DNA from: an uncultured Coriobacteriaceae bacterium
GTDB lineage: Bacteria; Actinomycetota; Coriobacteriia; Coriobacteriales; Atopobiaceae
Length of the DNA: 64,000 bases
Assembly: GCA_902777325.1 (NCBI GenBank)
Contig: CACYTH010000022.1
Location: 1-64,000 of the forward strand
Direction: 5' to 3'
Of this stretch, positions 19,101 through 29,306 are shown piece by piece. A program made the position numbers and the translations under genes. Position 1 is the stretch's first letter; each line of letters starts with the position of its first letter. The notes under the pieces were generated by a model. That model had not been told where the DNA came from, did no database searches, and saw nothing but the letters and a program-made list of their open reading frames with translations.

Positions 19101-19304
19101 GAGGGGAAAGGAAGAAGCAAATGCTCACCATCCGTCTGTTCTGCGCCGCTGGCATGTCCACCAGCCTCCTGGTCCGCAAGATGATCGAGGCCGCCGAGGC
19201 AAGGCTAAGGCCGCCGGCGTGCCCTGCGACGTCATCCCCATGGCCGACTACGGCATGGTCAACGGCAAGAACGTCCTGGCCTTCGCCAAGAAGCTCATCG
19301 GCTA
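19101..19304 (+). repeat. Long direct repeat, copy 1 (PTS IIB region)
   Basis: This 204-base segment recurs at 22552-22746. I see identity throughout except for a 9-base length difference at the internal junction (GAGGCAAGGCTAAGGCC here against GAGGGGCC there). The repeat covers the ribosome site and the whole IIB remnant. Sequence either side is unrelated. Confidence 0.9.
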
Positions 19305-19425: not shown

Positions 19426-20754
19426 ATGGGAGAATGGTTCCAGAATAACGTCCTGCCCAAGGTAATGTGGTTCGTTAACACCAAGGCCATCCGCGCCATC
19501 AAGGACGGTATGGTTTATTCGATGCCGCTGATCATCGTCGGCGCCGTGTTCCTGCTGCTGTTCCAGCTGCCCGTTCAGGCTCTGGCTGACGCAGTCACCG
19601 CTTCTGGTCTCGTGCCGTACCTGGCACATGGCTACACCTCGACGTTCCAGATCACGGCTCTCATCGCCGCTCTGGGCATCGCCTATCAGTGGGCCAAGAA
19701 CGAGGGCCTTGAGCCGATTTCCTCCGGCATCATCGCCATCGCCGTGTTCCTGATTCTCATCCCCGACTACGTTGTCGTTGACGCCGAGGCTGGCACCACC
19801 GTTGCCGGTCTCGACAAGACCTGGCTGGCTGGCCAGGGCATGATCGGCGCCATCATCGCCGGCCTGCTCACCGGTCTCATCTACAGCTGGTTCATCAAGA
19901 AGGACATCCGCATCAAGATGCCGGACGGCGTGCCTGATGGCGTTGCCGCTGCCTTCACCGGCCTCATCCCCGCCGCCTGCATGTTCACCGGCGCTGTCGT
20001 CGTCTACGCCATCTGCGACAAGATCGCTGGCGTGACCCCGATCGAGCTCATCTACAAGTGGCTCCAGACCCCGCTCCAGGGCTTCGGCGACTCCCTCGGC
20101 GGCGTCATCGTCTTCGAGGCCCTGATCCCGATCCTGTGGTGGTTCGGCGTTCACGGCGCCACCGTCGTCGGTTCCGTGTCCTCCACCATCGCCCAGGTTA
20201 ACAACCTCGAGAACGCTGACATCTTCTCCAAGCTGACCGCTCAGGGCATGTCCCGCGCAGAGGCTGTCGCAGCCCTGCCCGCCAACGGCGGCCACATCTT
20301 CACCGACGCGTTCGTCAACTGCTTCCAGGCTATCACCGGCTCCGGCGTCACCATGGGCCTCGTCATCTTCATGGTCTTCTTCGCCAAGTCCGCCCAGATG
20401 AAGCAGGTCGGTAAGCTCGGCCTCGGCTCCGGCATCTTCAACATCAACGAGCCGATCCTCTTCGGCACCCCGATCGTCATGAACCCGGAGCTGTTCATCC
20501 CGTTCGTCCTCGCCCCGGTCATCGGCAACGCCCTTGCCTACATCCTGACCATGATTGGCTTCATCCCCTACACCATGGGTGTCACCGTCCCCTGGACCAC
20601 GCCTCCCATCCTGTCCGGCTTCCTGTGCATCGGCTGGCAGGGCGCCCTCATGCAGCTCATCGAGCTCGTGATTTCGTTCTTCCTGTACTTCCCGTTCGCC
20701 AAGGCCGTTGACAACGAGCTGTACGCCAACGAGCAGGCTGCCGAGCAGGCATAA
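19426..20754 (+). CDS. PTS lactose/cellobiose/chitobiose-family IIC permease
   Basis: A 442-residue membrane protein of the PTS Lac/Cel family that moves and phosphorylates a di- or oligosaccharide. The family signature GSGIFNINEPILFGTPIVMNP lies near residue 335, and the substrate-site His near 243 (FGVHGATVVG). About ten membrane segments, full length. It begins 120 bases after the IIB remnant; the gap holds two small hairpins including GGCGTC-AGAA-GACGCC. GAAGGAAGG precedes the ATG. Codon use is strongly biased to C-ending codons, like a highly expressed gene. Sugar specificity cannot be read; context with MupG suggests an amino-sugar disaccharide or beta-glucoside. Confidence 0.93.
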   Translation: MGEWFQNNVLPKVMWFVNTKAIRAIKDGMVYSMPLIIVGAVFLLLFQLPVQALADAVTASGLVPYLAHGYTSTFQITALIAALGIAYQWAKNEGLEPISSGIIAIAVFLILIPDYVVVDAEAGTTVAGLDKTWLAGQGMIGAIIAGLLTGLIYSWFIKKDIRIKMPDGVPDGVAAAFTGLIPAACMFTGAVVVYAICDKIAGVTPIELIYKWLQTPLQGFGDSLGGVIVFEALIPILWWFGVHGATVVGSVSSTIAQVNNLENADIFSKLTAQGMSRAEAVAALPANGGHIFTDAFVNCFQAITGSGVTMGLVIFMVFFAKSAQMKQVGKLGLGSGIFNINEPILFGTPIVMNPELFIPFVLAPVIGNALAYILTMIGFIPYTMGVTVPWTTPPILSGFLCIGWQGALMQLIELVISFFLYFPFAKAVDNELYANEQAAEQA

Positions 20755-20938: not shown

Positions 20939-21724
20939 ATGAAGGTTGCAATCAGGTACTACTCTCGAGGTGGCCACGTGGAGGCCATGGCAGAAGCCCT
21001 ATCCCGCGGGACGGGAGTCGAGGCAATCTCCATCGACGAGCCTGGGGCAGAGATTACCGAGCATGTCGACCTGCTGTTCATCGGCGGTGCCCTGTACAAC
21101 TTCCAGCTTGACCCTCTCTTCAAGGAGTACCTGTCCGAGATTCCCGGCGACCTTGTCGACGAGGTCATCTGCTTTGGCTCCTCATGGCTTACGAGGCGTC
21201 CCATCTATCTGATGCAGGACTACTTCAAGGCAAAGGGCATCAAGATCAACAAGCAGGCGATTTACTCGCGCAACCGGCCTAATGACGACCTACTCGGCGT
21301 CATCGAGTACTTTGCGAAGAACGAGATGACACGTGACCGCTCGCTGGACGGCCTGCCCCCGTATATGATCTTCAAGCGTTCTCAGGAGCTCAAGGCAGAG
21401 CGAGAGGCTGCCGAGGCCGAGGGTCGTGAGGTGGCAGAGGACATGGAGCACAAGGCCAAGCTCGCACAGCTTGCCGCCGAGGACGCACAGGCCGAGGCAG
21501 AGGCTGCCCAGGCAGCCGCCCTTGAAGCCCAGGAGGCTGCTCGCATTGCTGCCGAGGAAGCTGCGGCTGCGGCATTGCGTGCCGCGGAGAAGGCGCGCGA
21601 AGCTGCCGCCGAGCTCGCTGCGGCCAAGGCACGCGAAGCCGCTGCTGTAGTTGCCGAGGTCGTGGCGAAAGAGGAGCAGGAGGATGTTGAAGAGGCCGCA
21701 GGGGAGGCCTCGGACGACGAATAA
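20939..21724 (+). CDS. Flavodoxin-like protein with Ala/Glu-rich coiled-coil tail
   Basis: A 261-residue protein. Residues 1 to about 135 have a flavodoxin-like fold pattern: a strand MKVAIRYYS, a phosphate loop SRGGHVEAMAEAL (lacking the usual T-x-T-G-x-T threonines), and the LLFIGGALYNF strand-loop. Residues from about 150 to 250 are a long charged helix of repeated EAQEAARIAAEEA type, predicted coiled coil, ending in an acidic tail. FMN binding is uncertain because of the altered loop. GGAGGG lies upstream of the ATG at 20939. It sits between the PTS IIC and IIB/IIA genes but has its own transcription unit. Function unknown. Confidence 0.75.
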   Translation: MKVAIRYYSRGGHVEAMAEALSRGTGVEAISIDEPGAEITEHVDLLFIGGALYNFQLDPLFKEYLSEIPGDLVDEVICFGSSWLTRRPIYLMQDYFKAKGIKINKQAIYSRNRPNDDLLGVIEYFAKNEMTRDRSLDGLPPYMIFKRSQELKAEREAAEAEGREVAEDMEHKAKLAQLAAEDAQAEAEAAQAAALEAQEAARIAAEEAAAAALRAAEKAREAAAELAAAKAREAAAVVAEVVAKEEQEDVEEAAGEASDDE

Positions 21725-22551: not shown

Positions 22552-22746
22552 GAGGGGAAAGGAAGAAGCAAATGCTCACCATCCGTCTGTTCTGCGCCGC
22601 TGGCATGTCCACCAGCCTCCTGGTCCGCAAGATGATCGAGGCCGCCGAGGGGCCGCCGGCGTGCCCTGCGACGTCATCCCCATGGCCGACTACGGCATGG
22701 TCAACGGCAAGAACGTCCTGGCCTTCGCCAAGAAGCTCATCGGCTA
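22552..22746 (+). repeat. Long direct repeat, copy 2 (PTS IIB region)
   Basis: A 195-base copy of 19101-19304, identical as far as I can read apart from 9 fewer bases at the internal junction. See copy 1. Confidence 0.9.
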
Positions 22747-22840: not shown

Positions 22841-23170
22841 ATGACTGAGGAGCTCGAGCTCACACTGTTCCAGATCATCACCGCTGCTGGTGGCTGCAAG
22901 TCCAACTACATTGGCGCCATCCAGGAGGCCAAGGCCGGTAACTTTGACGTGGCCAAGTCCCTCGTCAAGGACGGCGACGGCTACCTGTCCCAGGCCCACG
23001 ATCCTCACGCTGCGCTTCTCGCCCAGGAGGCTCAGCTTGCCATCGAGGGCAAGAACTCCGCCGATCTCGTCTGCCTCCTGCTTATCCACGCAGAGGACCA
23101 GATGATGAGCTGCGAGGTCTTCAAGCAGATGGCCGTCGAGTTCATCGAGCTCTACGAGAAGCTTGGCTAA
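22841..23170 (+). CDS. PTS lactose/cellobiose-family IIA
   Basis: A 109-residue all-helical IIA that accepts phosphate from HPr and passes it to IIB. The active-site histidine is His83 in LLIHAEDQMM, the family motif, and length matches ChbA/LacF-type IIA. The ATG at 22841 follows GAAGGAGAG. It is intact, unlike the two IIB remnants, and is followed by its own terminator. Confidence 0.93.
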   Translation: MTEELELTLFQIITAAGGCKSNYIGAIQEAKAGNFDVAKSLVKDGDGYLSQAHDPHAALLAQEAQLAIEGKNSADLVCLLLIHAEDQMMSCEVFKQMAVEFIELYEKLG

Positions 23171-23282: not shown

Positions 23283-24476
23283 ATGATCACGCTTGGTGTT
23301 TCCGTCTACCCAGACATCCGTCCGCTCGACGAGATCGCCTCGTATCTGCGTCTTGCTGCCAAGTATGGGTACAAGCGCATCTTTACCAGCATGTTCTCGG
23401 TAGAGGGCACTCCTGACGAGGTGCTTGCCTACTTCAGGAACCTCGACGGCGTGGCCCACGAGGTTGGCATGGAGGTTGCTCTTGACGTCAATCCGGAGTG
23501 CCTGGCCAGGCTTGGCGCTACGCCGTCGGACCTCTCCGTCTTTGCGGGCATCGAGGCTGACATCCTGCGCATGGACGGCGCCTACGGCCCTGACGAGAAC
23601 TTCGAGATGCTCAACAATCCCCATGGAATCAAGATCGAGTATAACGCCTCGGCGCTCGAGCCGGCTGCCATAGAGGAGCTGGTTGCGCGCGGCGTGGACA
23701 AGAGCCGCATCCTCGCGTGCCACAACTTCTATCCGCAGCGCTACACCGGCTTCAGGTGGGACAAGTTCCAGGCGGTCAACGCACGCCTGGCTCCGCTGGG
23801 CATCCGTGTGGGAGCCTTTGTCGCCTCGCAGGTGCCTGGCACCCATGGCGTGTGGGACGCCACCTGCGGGCTTCCGACCGTGGAGCGCCTGCGCGACTAT
23901 CCTGCCGACCTGCAGGCCCGCATCATGGCCGCCACGGGCAACGTGACGGACATACTCTTTGGCAATGCCTACGCCTCAGAGGCCGAGCTCGCTGCGGTGG
24001 CCGAGGCGCTGGCGCCCGTGGACTCGGCCCCCAAGAGCCCGCGTGCCGCTGCCGCGCTTGAGCAGTTCGCGGACTTCCTCGACCTTGGCGGCCTCGAGGG
24101 GCGCCAGAAGAAGGTGCGCGTCGAGCCCCTCTATGACCTCACCGACGTCGAGCGCGAGATTCTCTTTGACTTCTACCCGCACATCGACATGGGCGACAGC
24201 TCCGAGTTGATCTGGCGCACGCGCATCGAGCGCATCGCGTATGCCGCGGAGACCATCGCCCCGCGCAGGCACGTGGGCAGCCACTTCGAGCGCGGTGACG
24301 TGGTTATCGTCAACGACAACTACAAGCATTACGCGGGCGAGGTGCAGGTGGTGCTGGAGCCGATTGTCGATGACGGCACCCGCAATCTGGTTGCGCGCGT
24401 CGATGCCGAGGAAATGCAGATGTTCGACCTCGTCGCTGATGGAGATGCAGTGGTCTTTCTGCCGATCAGGGGTTAG
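23283..24476 (+). CDS. MupG/DUF871 family protein (TIM-barrel 6-phospho-glycosidase)
   Basis: A 397-residue protein of the DUF871 family, whose S. aureus member MupG hydrolyses 6-phospho-N-acetylmuramyl-GlcNAc inside the cell. The N-terminal barrel begins GVSVYPD and runs through KRIFTSMF, ALDVNPECL, LRMDGAYG and HNFYPQRYTGF, all typical segments. A C-terminal cyclophilin-like beta domain (from about 290) ends with FDLVADGDAVVFLPI. The ATG at 23283 was chosen over a longer frame that overlaps the preceding terminator. Its position behind PTS IIA suggests it cleaves the phosphorylated disaccharide delivered by this PTS. Exact substrate is inference. Confidence 0.85.
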   Translation: MITLGVSVYPDIRPLDEIASYLRLAAKYGYKRIFTSMFSVEGTPDEVLAYFRNLDGVAHEVGMEVALDVNPECLARLGATPSDLSVFAGIEADILRMDGAYGPDENFEMLNNPHGIKIEYNASALEPAAIEELVARGVDKSRILACHNFYPQRYTGFRWDKFQAVNARLAPLGIRVGAFVASQVPGTHGVWDATCGLPTVERLRDYPADLQARIMAATGNVTDILFGNAYASEAELAAVAEALAPVDSAPKSPRAAAALEQFADFLDLGGLEGRQKKVRVEPLYDLTDVEREILFDFYPHIDMGDSSELIWRTRIERIAYAAETIAPRRHVGSHFERGDVVIVNDNYKHYAGEVQVVLEPIVDDGTRNLVARVDAEEMQMFDLVADGDAVVFLPIRG

Positions 24477-24499: not shown

Positions 24500-26713
24500 A
24501 TGGCTGTCTTTGTTACGGGCGACATACACGGTTGGATCGACATCGGCAAGCTCACTCCGGAGCGCTGGCCCATGGGCGAGAAGCTGCGCAAGAGCGACTT
24601 TCTCGTCATCTGCGGCGACTTTGGCCTGGTGTGGACGGACCCTCCAACCCTCGAGGAGAAGTTCTTCCTGGACTGGCTCGACTCGAGGCCATGGACCACC
24701 CTGTTCATTGACGGCAATCACGAGAACTACGACCTTCTCGACAGCTATCCCACCTGCGAGTGGCGCGGCGGTCGCGTCTCGCGCATCCCTGGCACCAAGC
24801 ACATCCTTCATCTGCTGCGCGGCCAGGTCTACGAGATGGGCAAGTTCGGCCGCTGGTTCTGCATGGGCGGCGCCCCCTCGCACGACATCAGCGGGCGCGT
24901 GGCAGGCAGGTCGTGGTGGCCGCGCGAGATGCCCAGCAAGAAGGAGTACGAGACGGCGCTCGCCAACCTGGAGCGTGTCAACTGGCAGGTGGACTACGTC
25001 TTCACCCACGAGGTGCCCCGCAAGCTGCGCCGCCATGCGATGGTGCGCCACTACGACCCAAGCCGCGAGCAGGACGACGAGCTCTCCGCCTTCTTGCAGC
25101 AGGTGGACGAGCGCATAGACAAGTGCCGGCTCAAGGTGTGGTACGCCGGCCACTACCATGACGACATGATGCTGCGCGACAAGCAGCATGCGGAGATATA
25201 CAACCAGATCGTGCGCCTGGGCGAGCTGCCCGACGGCAGCGTCCACCGCCATCTGCCGTACTGCAGCGAGTCGTGGATTGGCATCAACGGTGCCGGCCAG
25301 CGTTACCGCGAATGGGTGCTCTCGCGCCAGATCGACGGCTGCACCATCACCTGGGAGGACAACGAGCACATCCGGCTTGCCACCAACACCATGTTCGGCA
25401 AGATCATCTTCCATCCGCGGGGAGACGATCCCGAGATCGTGGAGATGCACATCACGCGCAAGACGGACGGCGCGCCGATGTTCCGCGTGCGGTTCGAGCT
25501 TGACGACGAGCTGCGCGCGCAGGAGCTCTTCCTCGAGATGGCCGAGGTGCTCGACCGCACCGACATGCGTGGCATGACGCGCGTGCTGCTCTGCTGTGCG
25601 GCGGGCATCACGACCACCATCTACGAGAACAAGATGCACGCGCTCGCCGAGAAGCTCTCGCTCAACTACGTCTTCTCGGCCATGCCGCTTGACACTGCCA
25701 TCGAGCGGGGAGACCGCTATGACGTTGTCATGATCGCGCCGCAGATGGGGTATCGCTACCGGGACGCACGCCGCGCCTTCCCCAACTCCACGGTCATCGA
25801 GATCCCCGACCAGATCTTTGCCAGCTTTGACGTCAAGGCCACGATGCGGCTGCTCCTGGACGCGATGTCAGAGGGCATCCAACAGGAGGAAGCCGGCACC
25901 ACGGTGCAGATAGTGCGCCCCATCGACAAGAGCAAGGACGTGATGGTGGTCACGGTCATCCGCCGTGTCCACTCCCAGATCATCGGCTACCGCATCTTTG
26001 CGGACAGGGGTGTCGCTCTCGACGGCACGGTCTACAAACGCCATGTGGACTTCCGCGACATCGAGGACGTGCTTGCCACCGTCAAGCTCGATGGCTGGGA
26101 TGTGAGCACGCTTGATGCCATCGGCATCGCCCTGCCCGGCGTCATCAACCGCAACTCCATCTCCATGCCCTCCGATGACATCCGCGACTACGACATGGGT
26201 CGCAAGCTCGAGGAGCGCTACGGCATCGAGGTCTACATCGACAACAACTCCAACGCCGCCGCCATGGGCTGCTACATGTCCCAGACGGACTACGACACGG
26301 TGGTCTTCCACGCGCAGCGCACGGGCAGTGCGGCTTGCGGCGAGGGCATCGTGGTCGACGGGCACCTCTCCAAGGGGCGCCTCAACTACGCGGGCGAGCT
26401 GACGCCCCTCACCAAGCGGTACAACTACTCGGGCAAGATACACGAGCTGGTATGGACCTACGAGGGCATGCGCGAGATCGTGGCGTCGTACCTCTCCGCG
26501 AGCATCTGCACGATCTCGCCCGACGCGATATACGTGGCCGTCGCCCTGGTGAGCGACATGGACGCCCTGCGCGAGGAGCTGGCAAAGACCGTGCCCGAGC
26601 AGTACATCCCCGAGCTCATCTGGGTGGAGGACCACCGCGAGCTGGTGTTCTTGGGCGAGCTGGCGCTCTGCATCGACAAGCTGAACAACCCGCGCCTGCA
26701 CCGCAAGTGGTAG
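24500..26713 (+). CDS. Metallophosphoesterase - PTS IIB-like - degenerate ROK kinase fusion protein
   Basis: A single 737-residue frame with three recognisable parts. Residues 1-240: calcineurin-like phosphoesterase with a complete metal site (GDIHG, CGDFG, DGNHE, FTHE, AGHYHDD). Residues 359-456: a full-length PTS lactose/cellobiose IIB-like domain starting VLLCCAAGITTT, with Cys365/366 at the phosphorylation position and DVVMIAPQMGYRYRDA matching the family's GPQVR region. Residues 480-737: ROK-like (IGIALPGVI, NAAAMGC, GEGIVVDG, NYAGEL). The ROK part lacks the N-terminal DxGGT ATP motif. The catalytic Asp is Asn (DNNSN, 581-585), and the zinc motif is absent, so it is probably a sugar sensor, not a kinase. 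It lies 23 bases after the mupG-like gene. No such fusion is known to me; function is inferred to be PTS-coupled phosphoester hydrolysis or sensing. Confidence 0.85.
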   Translation: MAVFVTGDIHGWIDIGKLTPERWPMGEKLRKSDFLVICGDFGLVWTDPPTLEEKFFLDWLDSRPWTTLFIDGNHENYDLLDSYPTCEWRGGRVSRIPGTKHILHLLRGQVYEMGKFGRWFCMGGAPSHDISGRVAGRSWWPREMPSKKEYETALANLERVNWQVDYVFTHEVPRKLRRHAMVRHYDPSREQDDELSAFLQQVDERIDKCRLKVWYAGHYHDDMMLRDKQHAEIYNQIVRLGELPDGSVHRHLPYCSESWIGINGAGQRYREWVLSRQIDGCTITWEDNEHIRLATNTMFGKIIFHPRGDDPEIVEMHITRKTDGAPMFRVRFELDDELRAQELFLEMAEVLDRTDMRGMTRVLLCCAAGITTTIYENKMHALAEKLSLNYVFSAMPLDTAIERGDRYDVVMIAPQMGYRYRDARRAFPNSTVIEIPDQIFASFDVKATMRLLLDAMSEGIQQEEAGTTVQIVRPIDKSKDVMVVTVIRRVHSQIIGYRIFADRGVALDGTVYKRHVDFRDIEDVLATVKLDGWDVSTLDAIGIALPGVINRNSISMPSDDIRDYDMGRKLEERYGIEVYIDNNSNAAAMGCYMSQTDYDTVVFHAQRTGSAACGEGIVVDGHLSKGRLNYAGELTPLTKRYNYSGKIHELVWTYEGMREIVASYLSASICTISPDAIYVAVALVSDMDALREELAKTVPEQYIPELIWVEDHRELVFLGELALCIDKLNNPRLHRKW

Positions 26714-26753: not shown

Positions 26754-27959
26754 CTAGTCCCGGAGCATCTCCGCAACCTCGGGGAAGGGCTCGAGCGTGC
26801 GCGCGAGCATGCCGTTCATGGCGGCAAGGGCCATGCCATAGTTGACGATGGGGATGCCCGCAGCCTGCGCCTGGCTCACGCGATGGGCCACCTCGCGATC
26901 GTTGAGCATACAGGCGCCGCAATGGATCACGAGGTCGATGCCCTCGAGGCTGTCAGGAAAGCCCGCGCCCGAGGTGAACGAGAACTTTGGCTCGGCATTG
27001 GCGTAGCGCCTGAGAAGCCGGGGGATCTTGACCGTGCCGATGTCCTCGCACTGGCGATGGTGGGTGCACCCCTCGCTGATCAGCACGTGGCTCTCGCTCG
27101 TGGTGGACCTGAGCGCCGCCGCACCGCGCACGAAGGGCTCGAGACTGCCCTTGTAGCGTGCCATGAGGATGGAGAACGAGGTCAGCGGGATGTCTCGTGG
27201 CACCACGGGGGCAACCTGGGCAAAGGCCTGGGAGTCGGTCACCACGAGGCGTGGAGGCGCCGCGGGGGCCGCCAGGGAGGAGGCGAGCTCCTGCGGCTGG
27301 CAGACCAGGCAGGTGGCATGGCAGTCAAGGATGTCGCGGATGACCATCTGCTGGGGGAGGATGAGCCGGCCCTTGGGTGCGGAGCTGTCGATGGGGACGA
27401 CGAGGATGACCACGTCCCCCTCGTCGAGAAGGTCCGCGATGAGGCGGCGATGGGGCTCCGTCTGCGCAGCAATGTGCGCGAGGCGCTCCTTGAGCTCGTG
27501 CACGCCGGCGCCCGTGAGCGCGCTGACGGCGAGCGCCCTCTCTGGCAGCTCGTCCTGCCCGTCCACGAGGTCGGCCTTGTTGTAGGCGAGCACGTAGGGC
27601 ACCTTGCGCTCGTCGAAGAGCCCCATGAGGTCGCGGTCGGCCTGCTGGGGCCCACGGGTGGCGTCTATCACGAGCACGGCGATGTCGCATTGGCGCAGGA
27701 CCCTCCTGGTGCGGCGCACGCGCTCCTCGCCGAGCGCACCCTCGTCGTCTATGCCCGGCGTGTCGATGATGACCACAGGCCCCAGCGGTAAGAGCTCCAT
27801 GGCCTTGCGCACCGCATCGGTGGTGGTGCCGGCCACATCCGAGACAACGGCCAGGTCCTGGCCGGTGACGGCATTGACGAGGCTGGACTTGCCGGCGTTG
27901 CGCACGCCAAAGAAGCCTATCTGCGTGCGCTCGCCCGACGGCGTGTCGTTGAGGCTCAT
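26754..27959 (-). CDS. hydF: [FeFe]-hydrogenase H-cluster maturation GTPase HydF
   Basis: A 401-residue scaffold GTPase that assembles the 2Fe subcluster before transfer to apo-hydrogenase. The GTPase domain has GVRNAGKSS (G1), SDVAGTTTD (G2), DTPGIDD (G3) and NKADLVD (G4). The C-terminal cluster ligands are in EGCTHHRQCED and HCGACM, matching the HydF pattern. The ATG at 27959 overlaps the hydE stop by four bases (ATGA) and follows AAGGAG. HydG and the hydrogenase itself are not in this window. Confidence 0.95.
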   Translation of the reverse strand: MSLNDTPSGERTQIGFFGVRNAGKSSLVNAVTGQDLAVVSDVAGTTTDAVRKAMELLPLGPVVIIDTPGIDDEGALGEERVRRTRRVLRQCDIAVLVIDATRGPQQADRDLMGLFDERKVPYVLAYNKADLVDGQDELPERALAVSALTGAGVHELKERLAHIAAQTEPHRRLIADLLDEGDVVILVVPIDSSAPKGRLILPQQMVIRDILDCHATCLVCQPQELASSLAAPAAPPRLVVTDSQAFAQVAPVVPRDIPLTSFSILMARYKGSLEPFVRGAAALRSTTSESHVLISEGCTHHRQCEDIGTVKIPRLLRRYANAEPKFSFTSGAGFPDSLEGIDLVIHCGACMLNDREVAHRVSQAQAAGIPIVNYGMALAAMNGMLARTLEPFPEVAEMLRD

Positions 27960-29038
27960 GGCCGCTCCTTGTGGGTCGTGTCTGACGGGAAGGGACGCCT
28001 GTCGCCACGGTCCACCACCACGCGGTAGCCCACCGAGAGCATGCGCATGGACAGGCAGCCGCGGCATTCGGCCGCCTCCTCGCCCGTACAGATCTTGTTG
28101 TCGTAGAGCTCGTACTTCTTGCGGACGCCGACGGGCGAGAGGTTGGGCATGACCACGTTTGCGCCGGCAAGCATGCCCTTCTCGCGCCCGCGCGGGTCGA
28201 GGGTGCCCAGGGCCGTGGTGGCCGGTATGAGCATGTCGGGGTGCATGAGCCTCAGGATGGAGAGCAGGTAGAGCGTAAGCTCCACCGAGCCTCCCGGCTC
28301 GTGGGCAAACTGGGTCGCGTGATGGGGCACAAAGGGGCCGATGCCGCACATCTCGGGATGGAAGTCCTGGATGAAGGCAAGGTCCGTGGCCAAGTGCCCG
28401 AGCGTCTGGTAGGGCGAGCCCACCATGAATCCGCAGCCGACGGCGTAGCCCACCTCGCGCAGGTCCCGCAGGCAGCGCATGCGGTTGTCAAAGGACATGG
28501 AGGCGGGGTGCAGCAGCGCGTAGTGGTCGCGGTCGGCCGTCTCGTGACGTAGCAGGTAGCGGTCGGCACCGGCGTCAAAGAGCGCCTGGTAGCTCTCGCG
28601 CGAGCGCTCGCCCATGGAGAGCGTGATGGCGCAGTCGGGGTGGGCTCGCTTGATGGAGCTGACGATGTCGCCCAGCCGCTCGTCGTCAAACCACTGGTCC
28701 TCTCCGCCCTGCAGTACGAAGGTTCGGAACCCGAGCTCGTAGCCCTCGTCCGCGCACCGCTCGATGACCTCGGGGTCGAGGCGGTAGCGCTCGCAGCTGG
28801 CATTGCTCGCGCGAAGCCCGCAGTAGTAGCAGTCGTTCTTGCAGATGCTGGAGATCTCGATAAGCCCGCGCACGAACACCTCGTCACCGTAGACGAGCCT
28901 GCGCACCTCGCTTGCGCGCGCCGCAAGAAGCGCGCGGGACTCGTCGTCGCGTCCCTCGAGAAGGCGCAGGTACTGCGATCTGGTAAGCGCATGCGTAGTT
29001 GAGAGCTCGTCTATGAGCTCCTCGGTCATACGGTCCAT
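27956..29038 (-). CDS. hydE: [FeFe]-hydrogenase maturation radical SAM enzyme HydE
   Basis: A 360-residue radical SAM protein with the CKNDCYYCG cluster motif near residue 66 and the family segments QGGEDQWF, LSMGERS and GFMVGSPYQT. HydE acts on the HydG-derived synthon during assembly of the H-cluster. The C-terminal CxxC-type pair (AAECRGCLSM) may hold the auxiliary cluster. The gene follows a small TM1266-like regulator by ten bases and overlaps hydF, forming a three-gene operon. Confidence 0.95.
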   Translation of the reverse strand: MDRMTEELIDELSTTHALTRSQYLRLLEGRDDESRALLAARASEVRRLVYGDEVFVRGLIEISSICKNDCYYCGLRASNASCERYRLDPEVIERCADEGYELGFRTFVLQGGEDQWFDDERLGDIVSSIKRAHPDCAITLSMGERSRESYQALFDAGADRYLLRHETADRDHYALLHPASMSFDNRMRCLRDLREVGYAVGCGFMVGSPYQTLGHLATDLAFIQDFHPEMCGIGPFVPHHATQFAHEPGGSVELTLYLLSILRLMHPDMLIPATTALGTLDPRGREKGMLAGANVVMPNLSPVGVRKKYELYDNKICTGEEAAECRGCLSMRMLSVGYRVVVDRGDRRPFPSDTTHKERP

Positions 29039-29048
29039 GGCGCAGATC

Positions 29049-29306
29049 CTAAGCCTCGGTGAAGAAGTTGGAATAGGCCGTCTTGGCGCTCACGCCCGGC
29101 AGGTTGCCCACCTTGCCGGCAAGTGCGGAGATGACGTCCTGCGGCGCGTCGATGGCGATGCTGATGATGTTGATGCCCTTGGCGCGGTAGGGGATGCCCA
29201 TGCGTCCCACGATGTAGGGACCGTACTCGTGAAGCGTCTCGTTGAGCCTCTCGACCGAGCTTGCGTCCTCCACGATGATGCCGATGACGGCTACGCGCGT
29301 GTCCAT
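29049..29306 (-). CDS. TM1266-type putative iron-only hydrogenase system regulator
   Basis: An 85-residue ferredoxin-fold/ACT-like protein. It starts MDTRVAVIGIIVED and contains GRMGIPYR and INIISIAIDAP, the signature of the TM1266 group that is linked by genome context to [FeFe]-hydrogenase maturation genes and resembles the NikR ligand domain without the DNA-binding part. It is first in the operon with hydE and hydF; AGGAGG precedes the ATG. Its regulatory role is inferred from conserved neighbourhood only. Confidence 0.88.
   Translation of the reverse strand: MDTRVAVIGIIVEDASSVERLNETLHEYGPYIVGRMGIPYRAKGINIISIAIDAPQDVISALAGKVGNLPGVSAKTAYSNFFTEA

Follow-up and report, generated by a model that had tools for sequence, protein, structure and literature searches.

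A fusion protein of Atopobiaceae that joins a metallophosphoesterase to PTS IIB and ROK-like domains

Results and discussion

A single gene of an uncultured Coriobacteriaceae bacterium encodes a 737 amino acid protein in which a metallophosphoesterase (MPE), a domain of about 95 amino acids that we call X, a Lac/Chb-type PTS IIB domain and a ROK-like domain follow one another in that order, and comparison of its sequence suggests that sugar import may switch a phosphate-cutting enzyme on or off in rumen bacteria. The gene lies at positions 24500..26713 (plus strand) of the 64,000-nucleotide stretch of contig CACYTH010000022.1 that was analyzed here ("the window"); it begins with an ATG start codon and has no internal stop over its entire length. 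Its phosphoesterase, IIB and ROK domains had been recognized in an earlier, sequence-only reading of this DNA, and all three are matched by known families (phrog_1649, PF02302 and PF00480, respectively); the domain order given there was incomplete, however, in that domain X, between MPE and IIB, had been missed.

Distribution and evolution of the fusion

Full-length homologues of the fusion protein with 66–93% identity are present in 27 genomes (this one included) that belong to three Atopobiaceae genera. The named database records that carry it are from Atopobiaceae/Coriobacteriaceae (Coriobacteriia), with rumen and gut samples as the main source of their assemblies. When 98 proteins were placed in a tree, those with MPE (the tri-domain proteins) grouped as a single clade, with an SH-aLRT value of 100, which is nested among Atopobiaceae two-domain proteins; the fusion to MPE therefore arose once. 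Purifying selection acts on each of the four domains (dN/dS 0.02–0.58), and MPE is the most constrained of them in most of the pairs compared.

Domains of the fusion protein

The MPE domain (aa 1–248, positions 24500..25243, plus strand) matches phrog_1649, a family of phage metallo-phosphoesterases, over its whole length (E=5.9e-34) and differs from that family in being fused to X-IIB-ROK; Pfam and NCBIfam profile searches gave no match to this segment, and no clear relative was found by sequence among solved structures. The motifs that we took to define a calcineurin-like MPE (GDxHG, GD, GNHE, H and GHxH) are present as GDIHG (7–11), GDFG (39–42), GNHEN (72–76), H170 and GHYH (217–220). The eight candidate metal ligands, D8, H10, D40, N73, H74, H170, H218 and H220, are invariant in all 27 of the fusion homologues, in agreement with the complete metal site originally read from the window protein. 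Gut-phage proteins share 33–42% identity with this domain, and MPE is also found alone, both as a separate gene in relatives and in phages; among phage records, none spans the greater part of the fusion.

The IIB domain (aa 360–455, 25577..25864, plus strand) is matched by PF02302 at aa 361–433 (E=3.6e-7, 31.2 bits vs a curated cut-off of 23.6) and gives a full-length profile match over 103 residues to the chitobiose IIB protein 1h9c (E=6.8e-16), which bears out the assignment of this central segment to PTS_IIB. It resembles the Lac/Chb IIB proteins (PF02302; 1h9c, 2wy2) throughout and keeps their PQ motif, whereas the known members of this group are free-standing or fused to IIC, and here the IIB domain is embedded in a soluble multidomain protein. 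The predicted phospho-acceptor is Cys366 (codon 25595..25597, plus strand), which aligns with Cys10 of 1h9c (IIB-Chb), sits as in IIB at the end of strand 1, and is invariant in 98/98 aligned sequences from two phyla; Thr371 and Pro414-Gln415 are invariant in the same sequences. Cys365 and Cys366 had both been proposed for the phospho-acceptor position, with conservation among homologues expected, and this holds for Cys366 but not for Cys365, which does not align with the acceptor and is mostly Ser in the Bacillota members.

The ROK-like domain (aa 475–737, 25922..26710, plus strand) resembles the ROK kinases and repressors in sequence, with a PF00480 match at aa 538–634 (E=3e-11, 43.8 bits vs a cut-off of 22.9), and in fold, since the top Foldseek hits are all ROK kinases and repressors and include the Mlc chain of the Mlc/EIIB crystal complex 3bp8. 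Unlike the ROK kinases it has neither their ATP motif nor their Cys-rich zinc motif: the N-terminal ATP-binding DxGGT sequence, already reported missing in the sequence-only reading, is absent from aa 481–495, which read VMVVTVIRRVHSQII, the ROK profile match begins only at aa 538, and no CxCGxxGC zinc motif follows AGE (aa 631–633) in the fusion protein or its aligned homologues. The catalytic-Asp position of ROK kinases is occupied by Asn583 (codon 26246..26248, plus strand), as had been noted, but replacement of this Asp is not a feature of the family, as the position is Asp in 17, Asn in 8 and Ser in 2 of the 27 fusion homologues, and Asp in 20/32 Bacillota proteins; over the 98 sequences, more than half have Asn or another non-Asp residue there. 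An N-terminal winged HTH as in the Mlc/NagC repressors was not found: no HTH family matched the protein, and X has no PDB fold match.

Domain X (aa 262–357, 25283..25570, plus strand) is predicted by AlphaFold to consist of a helix, five strands and a helix (pLDDT 92). It gave no significant match in Pfam, in the PDB by sequence or in the PDB by fold, and its matches to viral folds are weak (best E 8e-3). X is an undescribed domain that lies outside known families, and its start coincides, mostly by start codon, with the start of the two-domain paralogues that are described next.

The X-IIB-ROK family

X-IIB-ROK without MPE constitutes a separate family with multiple copies per genome, present in Atopobiaceae and in Erysipelotrichaceae, which belong to another phylum. 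The window's genome has four such copies in addition to the fusion, and in Erysipelotrichaceae and relatives (Bacillota) there are up to at least five copies per genome. Among 296 sampled genomes of the window's phylum, full-length family members were found only in its own genome. Among plasmid records, none spans the greater part of X-IIB-ROK, and the plasmid matches listed are ordinary ROK proteins. These comparisons define a protein family that occurs in several copies in gut bacteria of two phyla and includes a domain (X) for which Pfam and the PDB gave no match.

Gene neighbourhoods

The fusion gene is preceded at a distance of 23 nt by a mupG-like (DUF871) gene (23283..24476; PF19200, E=5.6e-66, and PF05913), and farther upstream there are a Lac-type PTS IIA gene (22841..23170; PF02255, E=2.8e-23), whose product is a candidate phosphate donor, and a Lac/Cel-type PTS IIC gene (19426..20754; TIGR00410, E=2e-107), all on the plus strand. 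The placement of the fusion behind a mupG-like gene in a PTS locus is thus confirmed for the window, but conserved PTS/mupG neighbours proved not to be a defining trait: mupG lies upstream (17–140 nt before the fusion) only in the window's subclade of 8 genomes, and tri-domain genes outside it are mostly without an adjoining mupG and have unrelated neighbours. No murQ scores above the curated cut-off in the window's genome, despite its DUF871/mupG-like gene; MurNAc recycling was rejected as the pathway on these grounds, and the DUF871 protein may act on a substrate other than a MurNAc-6P disaccharide.

In four other Atopobiaceae genomes (L183–L186) the IIA-mupG locus ends in a stand-alone MPE gene 7–29 nt after mupG (55–58% identity in the two that were aligned), so MPE is tied to the IIA-mupG locus independently of the fusion. 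In another locus (L189) an MPE gene comes 10 nt after an IIB-ROK gene, whose 5' end is odd and foreign-looking, perhaps through misassembly. The same region in L133 (741–1976) has an IIB-ROK gene whose first part, FMN-binding-type by eye, is joined inside IIB, and this odd join is either a misassembly or a recombination.

When same-strand genes were counted over 104 distinct loci, tri-domain and two-domain together, the recurrent neighbours were Cof-type HAD phosphatases (11), mupG (8), GH1 glycosidases (5) and STAS-domain genes (4). Of these, the HAD phosphatase, GH1 and STAS genes repeatedly adjoin sensor genes without MPE. Many loci of the family have diverse and often housekeeping neighbours, so that a single pathway is not implied. 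The STAS neighbours (L072:1758–2057, L248, L128 and L198:9300–10026) are two per phylum, with an RsbW-like gene following the STAS gene in Erysipelotrichaceae; their adjacency to X-IIB-ROK genes in two phyla hints that PTS state is linked to partner-switch signalling.

Relationship to known PTS switches

Two known kinds of protein bear on how such a fusion might work. The ROK repressor Mlc is sequestered by EIICB-Glc only when the latter is dephosphorylated (PMC3901232), and the complex of Mlc with EIIB-Glc (3bp8) resembles the fusion in combining a ROK protein with a IIB domain of the PTS; in that switch Mlc is controlled by whether IIB is phosphorylated. The fusion differs in being one chain with a Lac/Chb-type IIB, in having no recognizable HTH and in having MPE as its candidate output. 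By analogy, the Mlc/EIIB-Glc switch is the best precedent for the fusion, with MPE in the place of the DNA-binding domain. EIIB-Glc and Lac/Chb IIB proteins differ in fold, and the precedent is therefore an analogy and not a homology of interfaces. In the second case, IIB-like domains serve as control inputs of regulators of the MtlR type (PMC6148471). Like these PRD-type regulators, where the EIIB-like domain is a phosphorylated control input, the fusion carries a IIB domain within a multidomain protein, but it has ROK and MPE partners in place of PRD, HTH and IIA-like domains; no PRD or DNA-binding domain was matched in it in Pfam or NCBIfam.

We found no description of ROK joined to IIB, or of MPE joined to IIB, in the open-access literature (subscription journals were mostly outside the search), and within that literature the statement that no protein with this domain order had been described is upheld. 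The domain combination and the covalent pairing of ROK with IIB appear to be new, while every part except X belongs to a known fold or family.

Proposed role of the fusion protein

The most likely reading of these findings, and one that we hold tentatively, is that the fusion is a soluble phosphoesterase that responds to the state of the PTS. We infer phosphorylation of Cys366, reading of IIB by ROK and gating of MPE, as follows. X-IIB-ROK would be the sensor part; IIA-Lac~P would phosphorylate Cys366 of the IIB domain in the absence of uptake of the cognate sugar, and the site would be drained during such uptake. The ROK domain may then read the state of IIB in cis, where Mlc reads EIIB-Glc in trans, perhaps along with a sugar or sugar phosphate that it has bound, and the change of state would be relayed via domain X to MPE, leading to phosphoester hydrolysis; from the mupG and IIA neighbours we would guess that the substrate is a sugar phosphate. 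Coupling of Cys366 phosphorylation via ROK to MPE seems the most likely arrangement because of the Mlc/EIIB and MtlR-type precedents. Also in its favour are the single-origin fusion in 27 genomes, the invariance of Cys366, Thr371, Pro414-Gln415 and the MPE ligands, purifying selection on every domain, the MPE genes that lie next to mupG or IIB-ROK in relatives, and the recurrent HAD phosphatase, GH1 and STAS neighbours of the sensor. An HPr gene is present in the window's genome. IIA-Lac is present in 35 of the 40 Atopobiaceae genomes that have the X-IIB-ROK family (the other five are 69–87% complete) and in 11/12 such Bacillota genomes, but it is common anyway (111/140 Atopobiaceae genomes), so its co-occurrence with the sensor is weak evidence. 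The AlphaFold model of the fusion has modest inter-domain confidence (pTM 0.62), and no domain interface can be read from it for that reason.

To our knowledge, the PTS exerts its control by way of transporters, IIA-Glc, HPr and regulators that bind DNA or RNA; if the proposed role is true, a PTS IIB cysteine wired via ROK to an enzyme would be a further kind of PTS output, and the fusion would turn the Mlc/EIIB interaction into one testable protein. In a more general form of the proposal, a ROK pseudokinase together with IIB (and X) would be a new, covalent class of PTS switch with varied outputs, and in the Atopobiaceae sugar import would directly gate hydrolysis by MPE of either a sugar phosphate or a nucleotide signal; we consider this possible but doubtful.

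A different and rather unlikely explanation is that IIB-ROK does sense the PTS but acts on separate partners, such as the HAD phosphatases or STAS/RsbW switches, and that MPE was accreted to it and is constitutive and ungated. The sensor part stands alone in most loci and occurs in two phyla, STAS genes adjoin it in each phylum (with the RsbW-like gene next in Erysipelotrichaceae), and MPE for its part exists alone and in phages, all as this explanation would have it; yet the fusion has been retained since its single origin in 27 genomes, with MPE its most constrained domain in most pairs, which argues against an ungated passenger.

It is also conceivable, although we think it improbable, that IIB-ROK is a PTS-driven sugar kinase in which Cys366~P, in place of ATP, donates to a sugar in the ROK pocket, trapping sugars that are freed in the cell by MupG or GH1 enzymes, with MPE as a companion phosphatase. 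The missing ATP motif next to presumed sugar-side residues (N582 and E633) that are largely retained, the Asp at the base position in 17/27 fusions, and neighbours (MupG, 8; GH1, 5) that liberate free sugars are in its favour. On the other hand, the base position is not Asp (but Asn or a different residue) in the majority of the 98 sequences, there are nine ordinary full-length ROK matches in the window's genome, most neighbours are not sugar-releasing enzymes, and we know of no precedent for a sugar bound by ROK receiving phosphate from IIB.

A further possibility, that the fusion's IIB is the transporter's IIB and replaces broken stand-alone genes for the IIC encoded at 19426, derives from the state of those genes in the window. 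Both stand-alone IIB copies (19121–19302 and 22572–22744) lack about 120 nt internally, at the same place, and IIA and IIC share the locus with the fusion. The broken appearance seen in the sequence-only reading is thus real in the window sequence but is probably an artefact, the assembler having collapsed near-identical duplicate copies, since a relative (L065) has, beside the same IIC, a stand-alone IIB gene that is intact, as well as the fusion, and in several relatives the contigs end or break within the stand-alone IIB gene, as would be expected of a collapsed repeat. The earlier suggestion that the fusion IIB may be the sole complete IIB is not supported either, for the window's genome has six further PTS_IIB matches outside the X-IIB-ROK family. 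The paralogues of the fusion are situated away from IIC genes. With an intact copy in L065 and other IIB genes in the window's genome, a replacement transporter IIB is very improbable. Finally, an error of sequencing or assembly that joined separate domains can be dismissed almost entirely, for although the window is from a draft genome of 48 contigs and another gene of the same locus looks misassembled, a gene of equal length and identical arrangement is found in 27 genomes, across many independent assemblies, and the single protein without a frameshift join, as originally read, stands.

Other observations

In L009 (5316–6899) a gene for a Sodium:dicarboxylate symporter (SDF) precedes an X-IIB-ROK gene; the symporter has an extra N-terminal region of about 125 aa that has no Pfam match and is RsbW-like by eye. 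Downstream of the fusion in the window, on the minus strand (26754–29306), are genes for HydF, a radical SAM protein that is HydE-like by eye, and a TM1266-like regulator, which belong to an iron-only hydrogenase system. At 20939–21724 the window encodes a protein that weakly resembles flavodoxin and has a long, coiled-coil-like tail rich in Ala and Glu; several related genomes encode a relative of this protein between IIC and IIA.
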